From the IMG/VR virus record IMGVR_UViG_3300024344_000150, positions 1 through 21,531 of that record: a stretch of DNA of 21,531 nucleotides. One strand, written 5' to 3'. Shown piece by piece: positions 2,843-21,530 of the stretch. The notes beneath the pieces were generated by a model. That model was not told the origin of the DNA and did no database searches. It worked only from the letters and a program-made list of their open reading frames with translations. Every line of letters starts with the position of its first letter. Position 1 is the stretch's first letter. The DNA comes from a virus. The position numbers were made by a program, and so were the translations under genes.

Positions 2843-2982
2843 AATATGAACCCTTTCTTGTAATTTAACGGTGCAATATGCTCCGTTTTCTGACAAGAAA
2901 TATCACATAATGTATTTTAAATTTAAAGATGCAGTTTGTGTAAAGTTGTGTACTTTTGTGTACTGTTGTAGACAAACGATGT
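2843..2982. other. 140-bp non-coding region between nuclease and HTH genes
   Basis: This is the only notable intergenic stretch in the window. It holds the 10-bp direct repeats at 2936-2975, an AT-rich palindrome TTTAAATTTAAA at 2915-2926, and the leader of the HTH gene. On the minus strand TTTACA (near 2942) is followed at 17-19 bases by TTTAAA/TAAAAT, a weak candidate promoter for the HTH gene. An AT-rich block beside direct repeats also resembles a small replication origin or regulator-binding region. Neither function is proved by the sequence. Confidence 0.5.
2936..2975. repeat. Iteron-like array of 10-bp direct repeats (TTGTGTA core)
   Basis: Units begin at 2936, 2946, 2956 and 2966 with a strict 10-bp period. 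The first three share TTGTGTA exactly (TTGTGTAAAG, TTGTGTACTT, TTGTGTACTG). The fourth, TTGTAGACAA, differs at two core positions. Units two and three share nine bases, TTGTGTACT. A 10-bp period places every unit on the same face of the helix, as expected for cooperative binding by one protein. The array lies just after the nuclease stop codon and about 95 bp upstream of the HTH start. Confidence 0.75.
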
Positions 2983-3303
2983 TTATGAATTTTGATTTAT
3001 GACATCTGGAACGAAAGTAATCTCATTATCTTTGTTAACATAAGCTAAAATAACGTTGAGATCTTTTTGAAGTGGGCTTCGCGTCCGGTATATTCGGTTC
3101 GGTATATTACGATTTGGATTAAGTCTTTTTGAATCTGTTTTTGCATCAATAAGAAATATGTCCCCTTTTTTATTGACGGCAATAATGTCTATGGGGCCTT
3201 GTTGATGAACTACGGGGGAGAAAACGTAATAACCCATGTTTACTAAATGAGCCGCTGCTATAAGCTCTGATCTAGTACCTCTCTGGTGGGTTATTTCAGG
3301 CAC
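2983..3303 (-). CDS. PD-(D/E)XK superfamily nuclease, small, GTG start
   Basis: This 106-residue protein has the core of the PD-(D/E)XK nuclease fold: E13 in a first helix (RGTRSELIAAAHL), a strand with GYYVFSPVV, D39 in GPIDIIAV, and D53-A-K55 in IFLIDAKTDS. Family members such as the PDDEXK_5 type and archaeal Holliday-junction resolvase relatives cut DNA with Mg2+. The length fits a single stand-alone domain. The start is GTG: a stop codon lies directly before it in frame, and the next Met (residue 23) would remove E13. GTG overlaps the upstream stop by 8 bases (GTGCCTGA), and GGGAGG lies about 14 bases upstream. It is the last gene of the coupled late operon. Candidate roles are junction or recombination processing or degradation of host or rival DNA; the sequence does not decide. 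Confidence 0.75.
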   Translation of the reverse strand: MPEITHQRGTRSELIAAAHLVNMGYYVFSPVVHQQGPIDIIAVNKKGDIFLIDAKTDSKRLNPNRNIPNRIYRTRSPLQKDLNVILAYVNKDNEITFVPDVINQNS

Positions 3304-4645: not shown

Positions 4646-7600
4646 GGGCTGACTCCTAACAGTTTGTTGATCTCAGCTTGGTATAATGCGTTTATTGTAT
4701 CTGGTCGAGGACCCGTGGTTGGTGGTCCTTGGACAGGTGGTGTTGGTTGAGGAGCGGGCGCTGGTTGAGGAGCGGGCGCTGGTTGAGGAGCGGGCGCTGC
4801 TCCTTGAGTCATTTGTTGCACCATAGGTTGCACTACTTCTTGTTCTACAACATTAGCTCCTTGATCAGTAGCGTAATAACCTGCATCAACCAATATGGTT
4901 CTTAATGATCTTCTAGCTGACTCCCATGCTTTTTCGGCAGCAATGTTTCTTTTGCCTAAATCTGCACCCGCTCTTAACGCTTTTTCTGCTTCATAAGCCC
5001 TTAACCTAGGAGAAGAAAGTACTTTCATAATAGGTTTGGATCTTAATGCTCTCGACAGTACCATTATACCTGCCGCTCCCCCAATAGTAGCTATTGGAGC
5101 TGCCCATAAAGCTGCCGCAAAGGCGGCGGCATAACCAGCGGCGGCAAGGCCTGTTTTACCTTTCATTACTGAATCAGAAACTGTTTCTCCGGCTTTAGCT
5201 ATTCTTGTTAAATCTTTAACAGCAGTTTCTCCAAGAATTTTGTTTAATGCTCCGTCTCTATTCATATCTTTCATCGCTTTTAACCAAGATTTTCCGAAAG
5301 CTCCGCTTTGTACAACATCACTTGTTACATTGCCTGTAGGAAATCCGGAAGATACGATTCTCTCCATGACTAAATCTTTAAATCCTCCTGGGCCTTCTAT
5401 AATATCTGCACCAACTCTGTTTTTTAAAGTGTCGTAATTTTTTGGATTTTTTAATACGTGAGCTACCAATTTATCTACCTCTATAGCGCCCCCACCCATA
5501 GCTCTTAAAAAAGAATCCCGGTTTTCTTGTTCTGATTGTCTAACAACATTTTTAAATCTATCTACAATAATTCTAGCGTCTTGGTTACCTATATTTCCCG
5601 CAAAATCATCTAACTTTTCAACACTCTCTCTATTTAAAAGTTTGAAATCGTTCATGACTCTGCGGAAATCGTTAGCTTGTAAACCAAATAACTCATTCTG
5701 TACTTTAGTTCCTAAACTATCCCAATCAGCAGCAAGAGATCTGTAGTTGATACCACTATCTCCTTGATTTAATTTAATAGAACCATCAAGCCAGTTTTTA
5801 GCTAACAGACCTCTAAAGCCTTCTCTGAATTGTTTTGGAGATCCTGCAGCAGTAGACATCTCACTATAAAGACGCAAAGTTTCAGCAAAATCATTTTGCA
5901 ATCTCATTCTGGTTGGATCATTCGTAGGTAGCTGGTTAAATGTTTCAGGAACAGTAAGCATTGTTTTTTCAGGTTTAAGCCCTGCTTTTTCTAAAGATTT
6001 GGCGCCAAGACCTACTTCCTCTAAAGCATCATTAACTCCTCTAATATCACCATTTAATATGCGTGTTTCTAAAGAAGAAAATAATCCTGGGTTAGCCTTG
6101 CCTACTTCAATTATTTTGTTAACTTCTTTAGATGACGGTTGAACTGCATCTAAAACAAATTTTAATAATTGAGGTTGATTACCCCTAACAGTTAGATCAA
6201 CAAGAGCGGATAGGTCTACAATGTTTTTATCTTTTATGAGTTGGTTGACTTGTTGAAGCATTCCGGAATTTATTATCTCCGCTCCTTCTTGATAATGTTT
6301 GTTAGCCCCCGCAAGTAGATCTAAGCCATCCCTTATTTTTGCTACTTCAGAAGGATCTTGAAGAGGAGGAACATCCCGTCCACTAGGATCACGAATTTCT
6401 TTACCTATTTTTCTTCCTTGAAAAGCTGCATCAAGAGAAGCTTTATAACTTTGAGCTAACTCTATTTCTTTAGTCCGTATAGTAGCTCCTATAACATCAA
6501 GCATGTCTTTAACATTCTTACCAGCAACCGTTCCTAAAAGATCTGGATGGGCCTCGCTTGCTCTTAACGCTGCCCGTAACGCAGGTATTTCGGAAATTGT
6601 AATTTCCGGATTGTCCATAATGTATTTAAATATTCCACCTCGCAAATATTCACCACCGCCAATAACATCACTTTGAAGAGCCTGTAGTCTATTTTGTAAT
6701 GGAACTAGACTAATGGTTTCTCCTCCAAGTAACTCATCAGCATTTCTATATAGTTGGTTAGATCTAGCTGTAAATAGTTTAGTTGACAGTTCTAGACCTC
6801 TTTGAAACTCAGAGGCTAAACCTTCAGATCCAGCAGTTGTTCTTTCTAAAACATCGTTTATAGCTTTAAACTCTGTTTCTAAAACATCTGTTAATTCTTT
6901 GTTTGCTTGTTTAACTGCGCTTTTAGGGTCAGCTAAACTTTGTTCCAATTTATTTGCCATATTTTGAGCAGTTTTTGCTATAAGACGTTTAGCCTCATCT
7001 TGTTGTATTTCACCAAGAGAATGCCTTTTAAGAACGTTGTTAACATAATCAACATTACGAGCAACAGCAGCATCATTAGGAAATATAGATTCCCATATAG
7101 CTTGTGTTCTTCCAAGAATACTTTTACCTGTGAGAGTAACACCGGGTATGTTTGCACCTTGTTCTATCATTTCTCTGTACGATGCAGAAGCTTCTTCTCT
7201 GGCTGCCCTTGTAGCTAATCTTGTAGACTTACCTTTTGAGTAACCTTGATTTAAATAGTTTTGTCTTAGTTCTGCTACTCTTACATTGTCCGGTAAAGGA
7301 CCTTTACCTTTAACAAGCCATTTGGCTCCAGCTATTATGCCTCTACCGAAACCTTCACCACCAGCCTCAATGAGACCTTGTAACGCCACATCTGTTAGTA
7401 TTTCATTTGTGCTTTGTTTTTGAAGACCTTCAAAGATATCTTCTACGATAAATTCATCAACAGCTTTTCCAGCAGCACCCGCTAAACCCACAAGAGTAAT
7501 ACCAAGAGGAGCGCCTAATCCTGTTGCCGCGACACTGGCTCCTAGAGCACCCACTAAAGGAACTGTCTCTCTTCCTAAAAACGAAGCAACATCTTGCCAT

Positions 7601-8031: not shown

Positions 8032-10394
8032 TAAGGTTTTCCAAATATGTTTCTATATTTAGGGGTAAATTTCCTAGTATCCATGTCTATAACATCTTTG
8101 TAATAAATAGGCTTAGATGTAGACATTGAGCCAAAGGACATTATTTGATTTGACTGAGCACCCCTAAGTGAGGATAAAACATCTTTTGCTTTTCCTCCTC
8201 CCATAAAGCCTACATCTCCGTAGTTTATTTCTATACCTCTCATTGAGTTATTAGCATTTGATATACCTGAATCAATAGAAGCTTCTAAATTTTTAAGTTT
8301 AACAAGAAGACTTCTGTAACTAGCCACTGTTCCATCATAAGCAGAATACGCTGTAACTAAGTCATCTACTCTTGCTCGATCCCCCTCAGATATAGTTTTG
8401 TTACTTTCATTTAAAATTTCTGTGACCATTGTTGTTCCAATAGTTTTCATAAGAGTTTTATATTCTTCTGGTTTATTATCTCTAAGAAAAGCTAAAGCAG
8501 CTCTACCATCCCTATTGTCTTGATACCCAAGAGCGTTTAAAGATTTATCAACAAAAGATTTGAGTAAAGGTTTAACTCCTAAAATTGTTTGACCACTAGC
8601 CCCTTCAGGTATGGCTATTTTAGCTGCGTCCATAAGCAAGCTTTTCATTCTTGTACCATTTTTTAAAGACCTAACATTAGTTAAGTATATTTCTCTGTCT
8701 TTAGAAAATTGATAAGGCTTCATAAGACCTTTATTCGCTTTTTCCATTAACTTTAAAGCATCTTTCACATCGCTTATATAAGTTTCCCTGTATGTTATAG
8801 GATACTGTTGCAATATACCGTCATTAATTTCCGCCATAGTTGCTGGAAAAGCCTGACCCTTTTTAATTGTTTGTCCGTTATAAATAAAATCTTTTTGTGC
8901 TACTAATTGAAAAGGTCTTGTTCTTCCTTCTTTAGCTAAAGCTACCTCTTCCTTCCTAAGTGTTTCCATTCCTGTAAGAGCGTACTTAGCAGCAGATAAA
9001 TCTATTTGTTGGTCAAAAGCACGTTTTGCTTTTTTATCTTTTACAAACTCTGCGGTAACACCTTTCATACCATCAGCTATGTTTTTAATAGCGTTAGGGC
9101 TTTCCCCAGCCATAACTCTTAATCCAGCTTCTGCAATAGCAAAACCCTTCTCTGCTTCTGTCATTCCTTTGTATTCAGGCATAGATTCTTTAAAATCTTG
9201 TATAAACTCTTCTTTAGTTTTAGGTCGTTCTTGACCCGTCTCATCAACTTTCTTTTCTTTAAACACTTTAGCAACAACATCAGCTTGAGCTTGAGTTTGA
9301 GTTTGAGCTTCACCATCGGTTGGCGCTGAATCTTTAGTAGATCCAGATTCATCTACACCGGGTTCAGAAGGTTCTGTTTCGCCTATAAAACCTTTTCTAA
9401 ATTCTTTAAACTCTTGTTCATCTAAATAATCTTGCGCTTTAGCATCTCCAACAGCGCCCATACCTGACTTTGCATCATCAGCATTCTGTAAAATTTCATC
9501 GACAGACCCAGGTATATTGATAGCATCTGGATCAATCTTCATAGCTTCTCCAACAGTAGCTTTATTGCCGTCTTGATCGACTACTACTTCTGAAGTGTCT
9601 ATGGGTAAAGGAACACCATCCACTTCTTCTTCTGTACGAAATATAGATTGAGGGTTTTGAGACCTAAGTTTAGCCGCCGCTTCCCCCCTACTTAAATCAA
9701 GATCATCTTCCATTAAACTAACACCGCCAGTAGCTTCAGGACCTATGTCTTTTTGAAATTGTGTTCCCTCTTCTCCAAAGCCATCTCCTACATTAATAGG
9801 TTTAGGACCTATGTCTTTTTGAAATTGTGTTCCCTCTTCTCCAAAGCCATCTCCTACATTAATAGGTTCAACACGTTCTACGGGTTCTATTTTGGTTATA
9901 CTAAGATCTTTAGGAGAAACTTTTTTATTTTGAATAGCCTCTCCATCTCCAGCTTGAGCGGCCATATAATCTGCTACGTTTATATCCGGCCTTAAAGGTA
10001 AAGGACCGCCCTTTTCTGTTCCTTTGTATAACCTAATTGCTTGAGCTACTTTAGGATCTTGAATGAAAGATGACTGTTCAACTGCCCTTATCTCATTAGC
10101 ATTTGCAGTTCCATTTAAAATTTTAGCAATAACATTGTTAACGCCTCCACTACCAAACTTAGCGATTCCTCCTTCGTTAAAGATGTAACTAGGTTGCATG
10201 TTAACAGCCGCCCCACCTTGGGCCATGGACAGTGTACCACCGCCCATGTCTGATAGAGCATCGTTACTGACTGCATCTACAAGGGAAGGGGACGAAGCTA
10301 AAATACCAGATGCCTTCGGAGTAGGGGGAACCATCCCACCGTTATTAAACATATGGCGCCTAGCTAAAACTGATTGAACTGTTCTATTTCTCAT
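8031..10394 (-). CDS. Large virion structural protein, unknown specific role (787 aa)
   Basis: The N-terminus has a basic start followed by Gly-rich motifs: MFNNGGMVPP (15-24), AQGGAAV (58-64) and YIFNEGGIAKFGSGG (70-84). Residues 177-220 are two almost identical 22-residue units (PINVGDGFGEEG-type). Next come an acidic disordered region and a Q-T-Q-A stretch (364-371). From about 412 a helical domain begins with EKGFAIAEAGLRVMAGESPN-AIKNIADG, a segment style I associate with marine phage structural proteins. The C-terminal half is helical with no catalytic motif. Position between other virion genes supports a structural or internal role. The ATG at 10394 has AGGTGA five bases upstream, 10 bases after the preceding stop. 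The stop overlaps the next start as TAATG. Confidence 0.72.
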   Translation of the reverse strand: MRNRTVQSVLARRHMFNNGGMVPPTPKASGILASSPSLVDAVSNDALSDMGGGTLSMAQGGAAVNMQPSYIFNEGGIAKFGSGGVNNVIAKILNGTANANEIRAVEQSSFIQDPKVAQAIRLYKGTEKGGPLPLRPDINVADYMAAQAGDGEAIQNKKVSPKDLSITKIEPVERVEPINVGDGFGEEGTQFQKDIGPKPINVGDGFGEEGTQFQKDIGPEATGGVSLMEDDLDLSRGEAAAKLRSQNPQSIFRTEEEVDGVPLPIDTSEVVVDQDGNKATVGEAMKIDPDAINIPGSVDEILQNADDAKSGMGAVGDAKAQDYLDEQEFKEFRKGFIGETEPSEPGVDESGSTKDSAPTDGEAQTQTQAQADVVAKVFKEKKVDETGQERPKTKEEFIQDFKESMPEYKGMTEAEKGFAIAEAGLRVMAGESPNAIKNIADGMKGVTAEFVKDKKAKRAFDQQIDLSAAKYALTGMETLRKEEVALAKEGRTRPFQLVAQKDFIYNGQTIKKGQAFPATMAEINDGILQQYPITYRETYISDVKDALKLMEKANKGLMKPYQFSKDREIYLTNVRSLKNGTRMKSLLMDAAKIAIPEGASGQTILGVKPLLKSFVDKSLNALGYQDNRDGRAALAFLRDNKPEEYKTLMKTIGTTMVTEILNESNKTISEGDRARVDDLVTAYSAYDGTVASYRSLLVKLKNLEASIDSGISNANNSMRGIEINYGDVGFMGGGKAKDVLSSLRGAQSNQIMSFGSMSTSKPIYYKDVIDMDTRKFTPKYRNIFGKP
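9284..9308. repeat. Degenerate hexanucleotide repeat (TTGAGC/TTGAGT)
   Basis: Four units of TTGAGC or TTGAGT follow each other inside the 787-residue gene and encode Q-T-Q-T-Q-A-Q-A on the minus strand. This lies in a low-complexity acidic linker. It also produces an out-of-frame Leu/Lys-rich open frame that is not a gene. Confidence 0.8.
9739..9870. repeat. 66-bp tandem duplication, two near-identical copies
   Basis: Copies 9739-9804 and 9805-9870 differ by one base near their right end (TTTA versus TTCA). They encode two consecutive 22-residue units, P-I-N-V-G-D-G-F-G-E-E-G and so on, in the 787-residue protein. Identity at synonymous positions shows that the duplication is recent or kept uniform by recombination. 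Confidence 0.96.
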
Positions 10395-20000: not shown

Positions 20001-20661
20001 AGTAGAAACCATTTGTGCCAAATGTTAATGTTTTAATGTCATCAGAACTCTTTGGTGTCCAATATAAACCAGATGAATCATATTCTCCAAAACTAAAAGG
20101 TGTTAATTGTAGACCATCAATCCATACTGTTTCGGCAGCATAGCCTTCTAATCCACCACTTCCAGTAGCACCATCATACGGACCTAGATTATTAACAACA
20201 CTAGAAGTATTAAAATCATTTACAAAATTTAAACTAGGATAATTTGTTGTTGCTAATGCAGTAACACGTTCACCATTAATATAAATTATAGCTCTATCGT
20301 CTTCGACAGCTTGAGTTGTATCTATAGCCACAACAATATGAATCCAGCCAATATCACGGAAGACTTGCGTTGTAGCTAATTGCCAATCATACCCACCAGA
20401 ATAATTATAAACGTGTAAAGTATTATCAGTTGGAAAATAAATTTGAAATAATTGAGTGCTACTTATATAAGCTGCAAATACACTGTCTTGATTTCCGGGT
20501 GTAGTTCTATAAATCCAACGGGAAAGAGTACCCTTTTCTTCTACACCTGTTGAGCTAGGCGTTCTTGCTAAATAATTTGTACCATTAAACAAAGCAGAGT
20601 TGCCTACTGATACTACATCATCAGAAGGTGCGGTGAACCATTGATTATTAGAAAATACCAT
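17041..20661 (-). CDS. Tail-fibre/adhesin protein with duplicated LamG + SPRY-like units (1206 aa)
   Basis: The protein contains the same two-domain unit twice. LamG-like (concanavalin A-fold) domains lie at about 25-195 and 470-645, and SPRY-like beta-sandwiches at about 285-415 and 735-875. Matching landmarks about 453 residues apart are VAIDTTQ/VAVDTTQ, YINGERV/YINGVQL, TTNYPS/TTNYPS, LQLTPFSFG/TQLTPSSFG and LTFGTNGFYLD/LTFGSAGFFLD. The C-terminal 330 residues form another beta-rich region ending in YIYMAIGTPIIDTAGRI, a DUF7483-like style. Such folds bind glycans or proteins on the host surface, so receptor recognition is likely. No ribosome site is visible; its ATG overlaps the stop of the upstream fibre gene (TAATG), suggesting coupled and perhaps stoichiometric synthesis. 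Confidence 0.82.
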   Translation of the reverse strand: MVFSNNQWFTAPSDDVVSVGNSALFNGTNYLARTPSSTGVEEKGTLSRWIYRTTPGNQDSVFAAYISSTQLFQIYFPTDNTLHVYNYSGGYDWQLATTQVFRDIGWIHIVVAIDTTQAVEDDRAIIYINGERVTALATTNYPSLNFVNDFNTSSVVNNLGPYDGATGSGGLEGYAAETVWIDGLQLTPFSFGEYDSSGLYWTPKSSDDIKTLTFGTNGFYLDNTTNAQTDASGEGNNFSNNGTVTTTTHTPTNIFGLANPLVKSAITYSNGNTTVATTTSANSRAQSTLPIVGKMKAEFKLDVGTVCILGIRSITLGTSIEVYYYSSDGSVGGATGSSGATWTTNDVITVLVDDDAGTIEFKKNNTSQGGARTINASGYTAGEGDMCFEWGDGGTSSAVTVTIAVESGDWDYSDTATFLECSTESIASATTRTASDSTKYFQTVLYEGNGGQQRVGNFQPFTDSFTVSKGALFPATGNLSRTFDEAGNRQIFSLSTWFKIGQTGEQEGSVGVTLFSTKNGSANSESTWFVVKLNTSNQLVVSIWNDLITNRTFEDTSQWYHLLVAVDTTQSTAADRIKVYINGVQLTDFGTTNYPSSSASLAWGVDSTAHYIGIRHTDGDEWNGYLAQTAYITGTQLTPSSFGQTDTSSNRWVPKDVSGLTFGSAGFFLDYADSGNVGDDESGNTNDFTNNNTVAQSGDTPTVNWNIIFNTAFSGGTLSNGNRSLITGSSEYGPALGSLGIDSGKWYWEIKPTASSTATLYSLIGISRGINLATGNNLGYQVGDYGYYSYDGDIVTNNNGAGESYGASYAVDDIIGVALDLDNKTITFYKNNSSQGVIKGLLDGMYYTAMGDWNGSGTASFEARFDSSLWSYSAPTDHIALAQDNIASSDQFITALSWIKNRDTTDYHMLENRVSGAGTALFPNDTAAASTQPDFIHKFLAGGVQIGEDTYYNTANESYAFWNFMMEATGSGSSLTSGSINTTALVDTTLGMSVGTFTGTGSANETIQTGLTGCEMIIVKRTNATYGWAVWHSGLTDDYSVLLNTNAAQVSSGYWDTSGNTSTLIELGTDSEAVNKSGQPYNFIAFAPSQFISIGTYEGNANADGAFCPTLNSLGVPIQPVWTLIKSMDHTQSWFLRDTARSPYNVVNKELYPDLTNAEVTSSTMDIVTGGFKQRVSSDSNSSYTYIYMAIGTPIIDTAGRIIAGR

Positions 20662-21530
20662 TATGCAAACGCCAGTTGTGGTGCCCCAAGTTGTATTGAA
20701 CCAGAAGCCTTTACAAAATAAGGAAGAACATCTACCGCACTTGCTGCTGTTGAGATAGTTAAACCTCCACCAGCAGGTGTTTCATAGTCTGTTCCTAATG
20801 TTAATGTTCGGCTACCCGTGCCATCCTGTATAATAACAATGACCCCAGATTGACCCACTGATTCGGTGCTAGGATTTGCTAGAGTAACATTACCAGTAAA
20901 CGTCAGAATAAAGTTTTGATAAGCATTGAAGTCTAAGGTAACACTTCCTGTATTTGAAGTGTCTGTTAAAGTTGCCCCCAAAGCTGCTTTACCAAAAGTA
21001 GTCATCTGGTTTTCATCGATAGATATAGCAGGTGTCGTTCCCACTGCCGAACCGAGACCTATCACAAGGTCATCAGCACTATCATCGAGGCCAATATAGT
21101 AATCTTGAGCATTGCCATTATAAACCAGTTTTGTATCTTCAGCAGTACCATCACCTATGGTTACAGATGCCGCAGGAAGTACAACAGCTTGGTTCTCGTC
21201 AATTGTAATTGCTGGTGTTGTTCCTACTGTTGAACCAAGGCCGATAACTAAATCGTCCGCGCTATCATCAAGTCCTATATAAAAGTCTTGAGCATTGCCA
21301 TCAAAAACAAGTTTAGTATCTGCAGCCGCACCGTCACCAATTGTAACCGAATCATCGTCTAAAGTAAGAATTGAGTTCGTTCCGACTGTAGATCCAACAC
21401 CGACAACTAGTTTGTCTGCACTATCATCAAGACCCATGTAAAAATCTTTAGCATTACCATCATAAATTAATATGGTGTCTTCAGCCGTTCCGTCACCGAT
21501 TGTAGCTTTGGCTGCAGGAAGAACTACCGC
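20661..21530 (-). CDS. Repeat-containing tail-fibre protein, 3' part (start lies beyond right edge)
   Basis: The frame stays open to the window edge with 31 further codons before the first in-window ATG (21437), and those codons continue the same repeat, so the real start is outside. The visible 289 residues contain three modules of the type TIGDGTAEDTKLVYNGNAQDYY-IGLDDSADDLVIGLGS, then a linker (TTFGKAALGATL) and a beta-rich C-terminal domain (GSVTLDFNAYQNFILTFTGNVTLANPS through SIQLGAPQLAFA). Asp/Gly-rich beta repeats of this kind are typical of trimeric fibre shafts; the C-terminal domain may cap or trimerise the fibre. It precedes the lectin-domain fibre gene with a TAATG overlap, so the two probably belong to one fibre apparatus. 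Confidence 0.82.
   Translation of the reverse strand, partial: AVVLPAAKATIGDGTAEDTILIYDGNAKDFYMGLDDSADKLVVGVGSTVGTNSILTLDDDSVTIGDGAAADTKLVFDGNAQDFYIGLDDSADDLVIGLGSTVGTTPAITIDENQAVVLPAASVTIGDGTAEDTKLVYNGNAQDYYIGLDDSADDLVIGLGSAVGTTPAISIDENQMTTFGKAALGATLTDTSNTGSVTLDFNAYQNFILTFTGNVTLANPSTESVGQSGVIVIIQDGTGSRTLTLGTDYETPAGGGLTISTAASAVDVLPYFVKASGSIQLGAPQLAFA
21009..21503. repeat. Protein-level repeat array in the fibre gene (three modules in view)
   Basis: Modules begin with I-G-D-G at about 21500, 21341 and 21158, reading leftward, giving periods of 159 and 183 bases (53 and 61 residues). The difference is a linker: the first and third modules are preceded by A-V-V-L-P-A-A, while the second has a short T-L-D-D-D-S linker. 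The array continues past the right edge of the window. Confidence 0.85.

Follow-up and report, generated by a model that had tools for sequence, protein, structure and literature searches.

What is the function of a short run of evenly spaced repeats that lies in the largest gap between the genes of a marine phage? The DNA in question, here called the window (21,531 nucleotides), is a fragmentary linear virus record of 21.5 kb in IMG/VR. On its plus strand are the end of a UvrD-like helicase gene, a DUF3310 gene and a family A DNA polymerase gene (PolA, 626–2554), and all genes past 2554 are on the minus strand. By sequence comparison the window phage is a marine relative of the HTVC023P-type group/SAR11 phages. 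This placement is based on TerL: in G001, a 56-kb relative from which locus L003 comes, it has 58–65% identity to the TerL of HTVC023P, HTVC027P and two further related phages.

A sequence-only reading of the window had described four units at an exact 10-bp spacing, three of them with TTGTGTA, and this description was confirmed. TTGTGTA was found on the plus strand at 2936, 2946 and 2956, followed by a degenerate fourth unit, TTGTAGA, at 2966, and the step is exactly 10 bp throughout. The array is real and non-random. It is the sole exact 7-mer triple at periods of 8–14 in the window, none of 60 dinucleotide shuffles contained one, and its pattern with up to three mismatches was expected only 0.01 times per window shuffle. 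It is also unique within the 56-kb relative. Other repeats in the window are within genes of the minus strand: an in-frame tandem repeat at 9731–9870 (66-bp unit, 2.1 copies), another at 4744–4799 (18-bp unit, 3.1 copies) that encodes a PAPQPAPAPQP tract, and a protein of repeated blocks (e.g., GDGTAEDTKLVYNGNAQDYYIGLDDSADDLVIGLGS) at 20661–21530 that is incomplete at the window end.

The array lies in a 140-bp gap (2843–2982) bounded by two minus-strand genes, one ending there with the stop codon of a PDDEXK-like nuclease and the other, for a 77-residue protein, starting at 2842. This gap, which had been described as the only real one in the window, is the largest between plausible genes, the next being the 54-bp terminator gap after PolA. 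The location of the array at the convergence of the two gene arms proved mistaken: the tail-to-tail junction is at 2555–2608 and has an intrinsic terminator, and the array is on the far side of the 77-residue gene from it, within the arm of minus-strand genes and ahead of the start of the 77-residue gene. There it is directly upstream of a candidate promoter for the gene and overlaps its −35 element (Table 1). Matches in a promoter consensus scan were at chance level in this region, yet TTKACA-19-TAAnnT was kept in all carriers of the array. The AT-rich palindrome that had been noted next to the repeats is present, but was not conserved in either of two relatives (L020, L021).

Table 1. Features of the array-bearing locus in the window.
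Feature	Position	Strand	Basis or remark
Intrinsic terminator closing the cassette	2565–2588	−	10-bp stem and T-tail; conserved in all carriers
Gene for the 77-aa predicted winged-helix protein, with its stop codon	2609–2842	−	ORF, predicted model
Small hairpin round the start codon (GGTTCATATTATGGATC)	2836–2852	−	Folding, relatives; lost in L021
Shine-Dalgarno-like sequence AAGAAAGGG	2851–2859	−	Sequence
Predicted leader hairpin TTTCTTGT..AACGGAGCA-TAT-TGCACCGTT..ACAAGAAA	2854–2900	−	Folding, double-sided changes in L027; reaches into the Shine-Dalgarno sequence
Candidate promoter: TTTACA (2939–2944) -19 bp- or TACACA (2937–2942) -17 bp- TAAAAT (2914–2919)	2914–2944	−	Consensus scan; elements kept in relatives
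AT-rich palindrome TTTAAATTTAAA	2916–2927	.	Extends into the −10 region; no conservation
Array of four 10-bp direct-repeat units	2933–2972	−	Repeat scans, shuffles; same register in all carriers
Array unit TCTACAACAG	2963–2972	−	
Array unit TACACAAAAG	2953–2962	−	
Array unit TACACAACTT	2943–2952	−	
Array unit TACACAAACT	2933–2942	−	
PDDEXK-like nuclease	2983–3303	−	Pfam match, below cut-off

To compare the junction among related phages, a polymerase search was used that returned 80 loci, the close ones being compared at the 3′ end of PolA. This alignment, which the sequence-only reading had proposed as a check, supported an operator: in all six relatives that have the HTH gene and a sequenced upstream region (L010, L020, L023, L024, L027 and L030) the array is present and its 10-bp register is that of the window, and five others (L025, L026, L028, L029 and L041) have neither the gene nor the array. 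With L021, discussed below, there are seven carrier contigs besides the window, representing only about four independent lineages. Four units are present in the window, L010 and L021 and three in L020, L023, L024, L027 and L030, a difference of exactly one 10-bp unit. Such a change by a whole unit with the register kept would be expected if helical phase matters. Between the window and L020 none of 29 array positions differ, as against 8 of 34 in the adjacent spacer. When IMG/VR was scanned for the array pattern, these carriers alone were returned.

These elements form a compact cassette at the 3′ end of the PolA gene, consisting of the array, the candidate promoter, a predicted leader hairpin, a small ORF and a terminator. 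The predicted 5′ untranslated region (67 nt, fold of 2836–2902) is more stable than its shuffles (z of −4.3). In L027 two inner-stem pairs are changed on both sides and still paired (A-U to G-C and G-C to C-G), and other changes produce G-U pairs. Double-sided changes of this type were reached by 14 of 500 control shuffles, with only seven distinct sequences to compare, and the covariation, seen in one lineage, is suggestive. In L020 and L027 the outer stem, which takes in a portion of the Shine-Dalgarno sequence, is disrupted. The window, leader included, had no match in Rfam at gathering thresholds. A scan of IMG/VR with the leader pattern returned the same carriers and an unrelated region (L100), and the five matches in bacterial genomes are about the number expected by chance, none having the wider leader.

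The cassette is optional. L027 and L030 are 99.7–99.9% identical to L028 and L029 save for a clean 457-bp insertion immediately behind the stop codon of PolA, which holds the terminator, the HTH gene, the leader and the array. A 17-bp direct repeat, GGGGCAATGCCAAATAA, flanks the insertion and is present as a single copy in the empty genomes; no flanking duplication of this type was found at the cassette of the window. The array-bearing unit fits the description of a moron, a term for units that phages have gained between conserved genes (PMC6316719, PMC2784084): it is a single gene with its own terminator (2588–2565, in all carriers) and a probable promoter, between conserved genes, and near relatives with contiguous flanks lack it. 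It differs from phage morons in that the front end and terminator also enclose an unrelated ORF in one contig, and in that the promoter is putative. No convincing match to cassette DNA was found in cultured phages, and the small genes downstream of the polymerase in HTVC023P showed no similarity by eye. The five relatives without the cassette have a conserved plus-strand micro-ORF of ~30–40 codons directly after PolA, with a Shine-Dalgarno-like sequence and the ending ..AWVKAGxxDxF; it is absent from the window and lies beside the cassette in L027.

The 77-residue protein had no match in Pfam, PHROGs or NCBIfam, and sequence searches of bacterial genomes, of cultured phages and of the PDB turned up no convincing relative. 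Its AF2 model (pLDDT 68) has the order strand-helix-helix-strand-strand-helix. A Foldseek search with the model gave no significant match. The top rows of a structural alignment were mostly proteins of the MerR or Xis type, among them SoxR, Pukovnik Xis, GIsul2 excisionase, BldC and RdfS, with Z of ~5.5–6.3, all below 8, a range in which a score can reflect a common arrangement. The model thus weakly suggests a MerR/Xis/BldC-like winged helix, as a plausible class assignment only. A possible alternative start, TTG at 2896, which would extend the protein at its N terminus, is in a frame that is open in all carriers; substitutions in the extension were without codon-position bias (4/4/4, window versus L027), and no Shine-Dalgarno sequence was evident for it.

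Small winged-helix proteins of these classes are known to read repeats spaced by one helical turn. Apl, like other RDFs, binds as head-to-tail monomers and highly cooperatively to direct repeats separated by one turn, and it acts at att and represses promoters (PMC7498355). The Apl/Cox/Xis RDF operators of phages 186, P2 and lambda share with the present locus one-turn (10–11 bp) direct repeats beside or overlapping a promoter, here in a 10-bp register in all carriers. A small winged-helix protein is encoded near those operators, and the nearby 77-residue protein is weakly predicted to be one. The present locus differs from them in that no tyrosine integrase was seen in G001, no att site was identified and the 77-residue protein has no recognizable sequence homology. 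PF00589 was absent from G001 in a search that covered four related genomes, and an excisionase working with an integrase was rejected on this ground.

BldC of Streptomyces, a MerR-like domain without a sensor domain, protects the smeA promoter between −60 and −10, in four tracts set at intervals of one helical turn (PMC5859096). The smeA-sffA promoter resembles our locus in its four one-turn repeats and in the variable number of units, and the 77-residue model is 23–24% identical over structurally aligned BldC chains. However, the BldC consensus AATTxxxxC (PMC5859096) is absent from the array, no unit of which contains AATT, and Z was only 5.8–5.9, again below 8. RdfS of ICEMlSymR7A, a winged-helix protein that forms oligomers, binds to its own promoter (PMC11963761), and its fold matched the model at a Z of 5.5, likewise in the range that a common arrangement can give. 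RdfS lacks a consensus motif and works together with an integrase, whereas here the repeats are clear and no integrase was seen.

We consider that there is a little better than an even chance that the array serves as operator to a phage cassette that is small, self-contained and moron-like, probably an autoregulatory one. The array begins ahead of the HTH gene's candidate promoter and runs into it, accompanies that gene in all relatives sequenced at this place, and is missing only from relatives that also lack the gene; the protein is weakly of a fitting class. That the array is conserved while the adjacent spacer diverges, and that it comes and goes with the cassette, support an operator as judged from these comparisons. 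In the mechanism that we envisage, a small winged-helix protein of the MerR/Xis/BldC kind would bind as monomers, one to each unit, head-to-tail on a single face of the DNA, each cooperating with its neighbors. Binding from about −65 to −35 would set transcription of the cassette, and the likeliest binder would be the cassette's own 77-residue protein, closing an autoregulatory circuit. Repression would be more likely than activation since the last unit overlaps the −35 element; activation is possible because of the long 19-bp spacer. The leader hairpin near the Shine-Dalgarno sequence may add a second control, at translation.

The autoregulatory part of this proposal, which the sequence-only reading had also put forward, is weakened by L021, the main reason that we do not rate it higher. 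In that contig the cassette's array, leader and terminator enclose an unrelated ORF of 186 residues (L021:4039–4599, minus strand) and there is no HTH gene. The 186-residue product has cysteine pairs, a possible HTH and a weak match to phrog_21667; its predicted fold was of too poor quality for use. The swap implies either that the reader of the array may differ from the adjacent product or that the swap is recent. The operator could therefore have some other reader, either a second regulator of the phage or a protein of the host, with the HTH gene being only one of several ORFs behind a common front end. The retention of all four units in L021 argues for this, as does the small number of differences from the window in the array (2 of 39 positions) relative to the adjacent spacer (10 of 34); the main leader hairpin differs at 2 of 48. 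Nevertheless, L021 is a single contig, its swap could be recent, its own product or another protein of the L021 phage could bind as well, and the class of the HTH protein suits the geometry of the array. We regard a reader other than the cassette's own protein as a serious contender, though on present evidence rather unlikely.

Another explanation is that the array marks the end of a mobile cassette, providing arm sites or an excision/insertion signal on which a recombinase coming in trans would act, the HTH protein serving as an Xis-like directionality factor. In its favor are the clean insertion with its 17-bp direct repeat in L027 and L030; phased units in L027 continue in register almost to the end of the insert, and the fold hints are of Xis type. 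Against this, the four related genomes covered lack a tyrosine integrase, every contig found has the cassette at the same locus, the window has no repeat flank, and template switching or homologous exchange accounts equally for the insertion. This explanation is therefore distinctly unlikely. Slightly less improbable, and still doubtful, is a fuller picture of an exchangeable cassette of ~440 bp, with a fixed front end (repeats, promoter and leader) and a fixed terminator between which ORFs are swapped, inserted as a unit at the polymerase 3′ end with a 17-bp target duplication, and encoding an Xis-like protein while lacking a recombinase gene.

A neutral, functionless tandem duplication would account for the difference of one unit among relatives. 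Exact triples of TACACAA (the minus-strand form of the heptamer) in 10-bp tandem numbered 11 in viral contigs and those of the reversed heptamer 7, so that another heptamer forms such triples at roughly the same frequency. However, the array was kept while the adjacent spacer diverged, its register is the same across lineages and it overlaps the −35 element, all of which make a functionless array very improbable. The same counts gave no clear enrichment, and we rejected TACACAA arrays as a motif common across phages. Two related contigs, L011 (from 3871) and L013 (from 7756), have TACACAA three times in exact 10-bp steps, 24 bp upstream of a gene for a 62-residue HTH_17 protein and divergent from a repressor-like gene; this we note as a lead only. 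A small iteron replication origin, the other function that had been suggested, has tandem repeats, an AT-rich neighborhood and a nearby sign change in GC skew in its favor, but is barely credible, as the skew changes sign at the strand switch, where the polymerase gene ends, just as much in relatives that lack the array as in those that have it, skew elsewhere in the 56-kb relative tracks gene orientation, the array is part of an optional cassette and the AT-rich palindrome is not conserved.

The design of the array is already known, and what is new here is most likely the exchangeable package in which it is found. If the operator reading is true, this phage group related to HTVC023P would have a compact and testable array, with one monomer per helical turn, that controls a phage gene cassette and apparently does so outside an integration system. 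Nature has also provided the variants with which the reading of the array and the spread of the cassette may be studied: near-identical genomes with and without the cassette, changes of the repeat by whole units, and the swapped ORF of L021.
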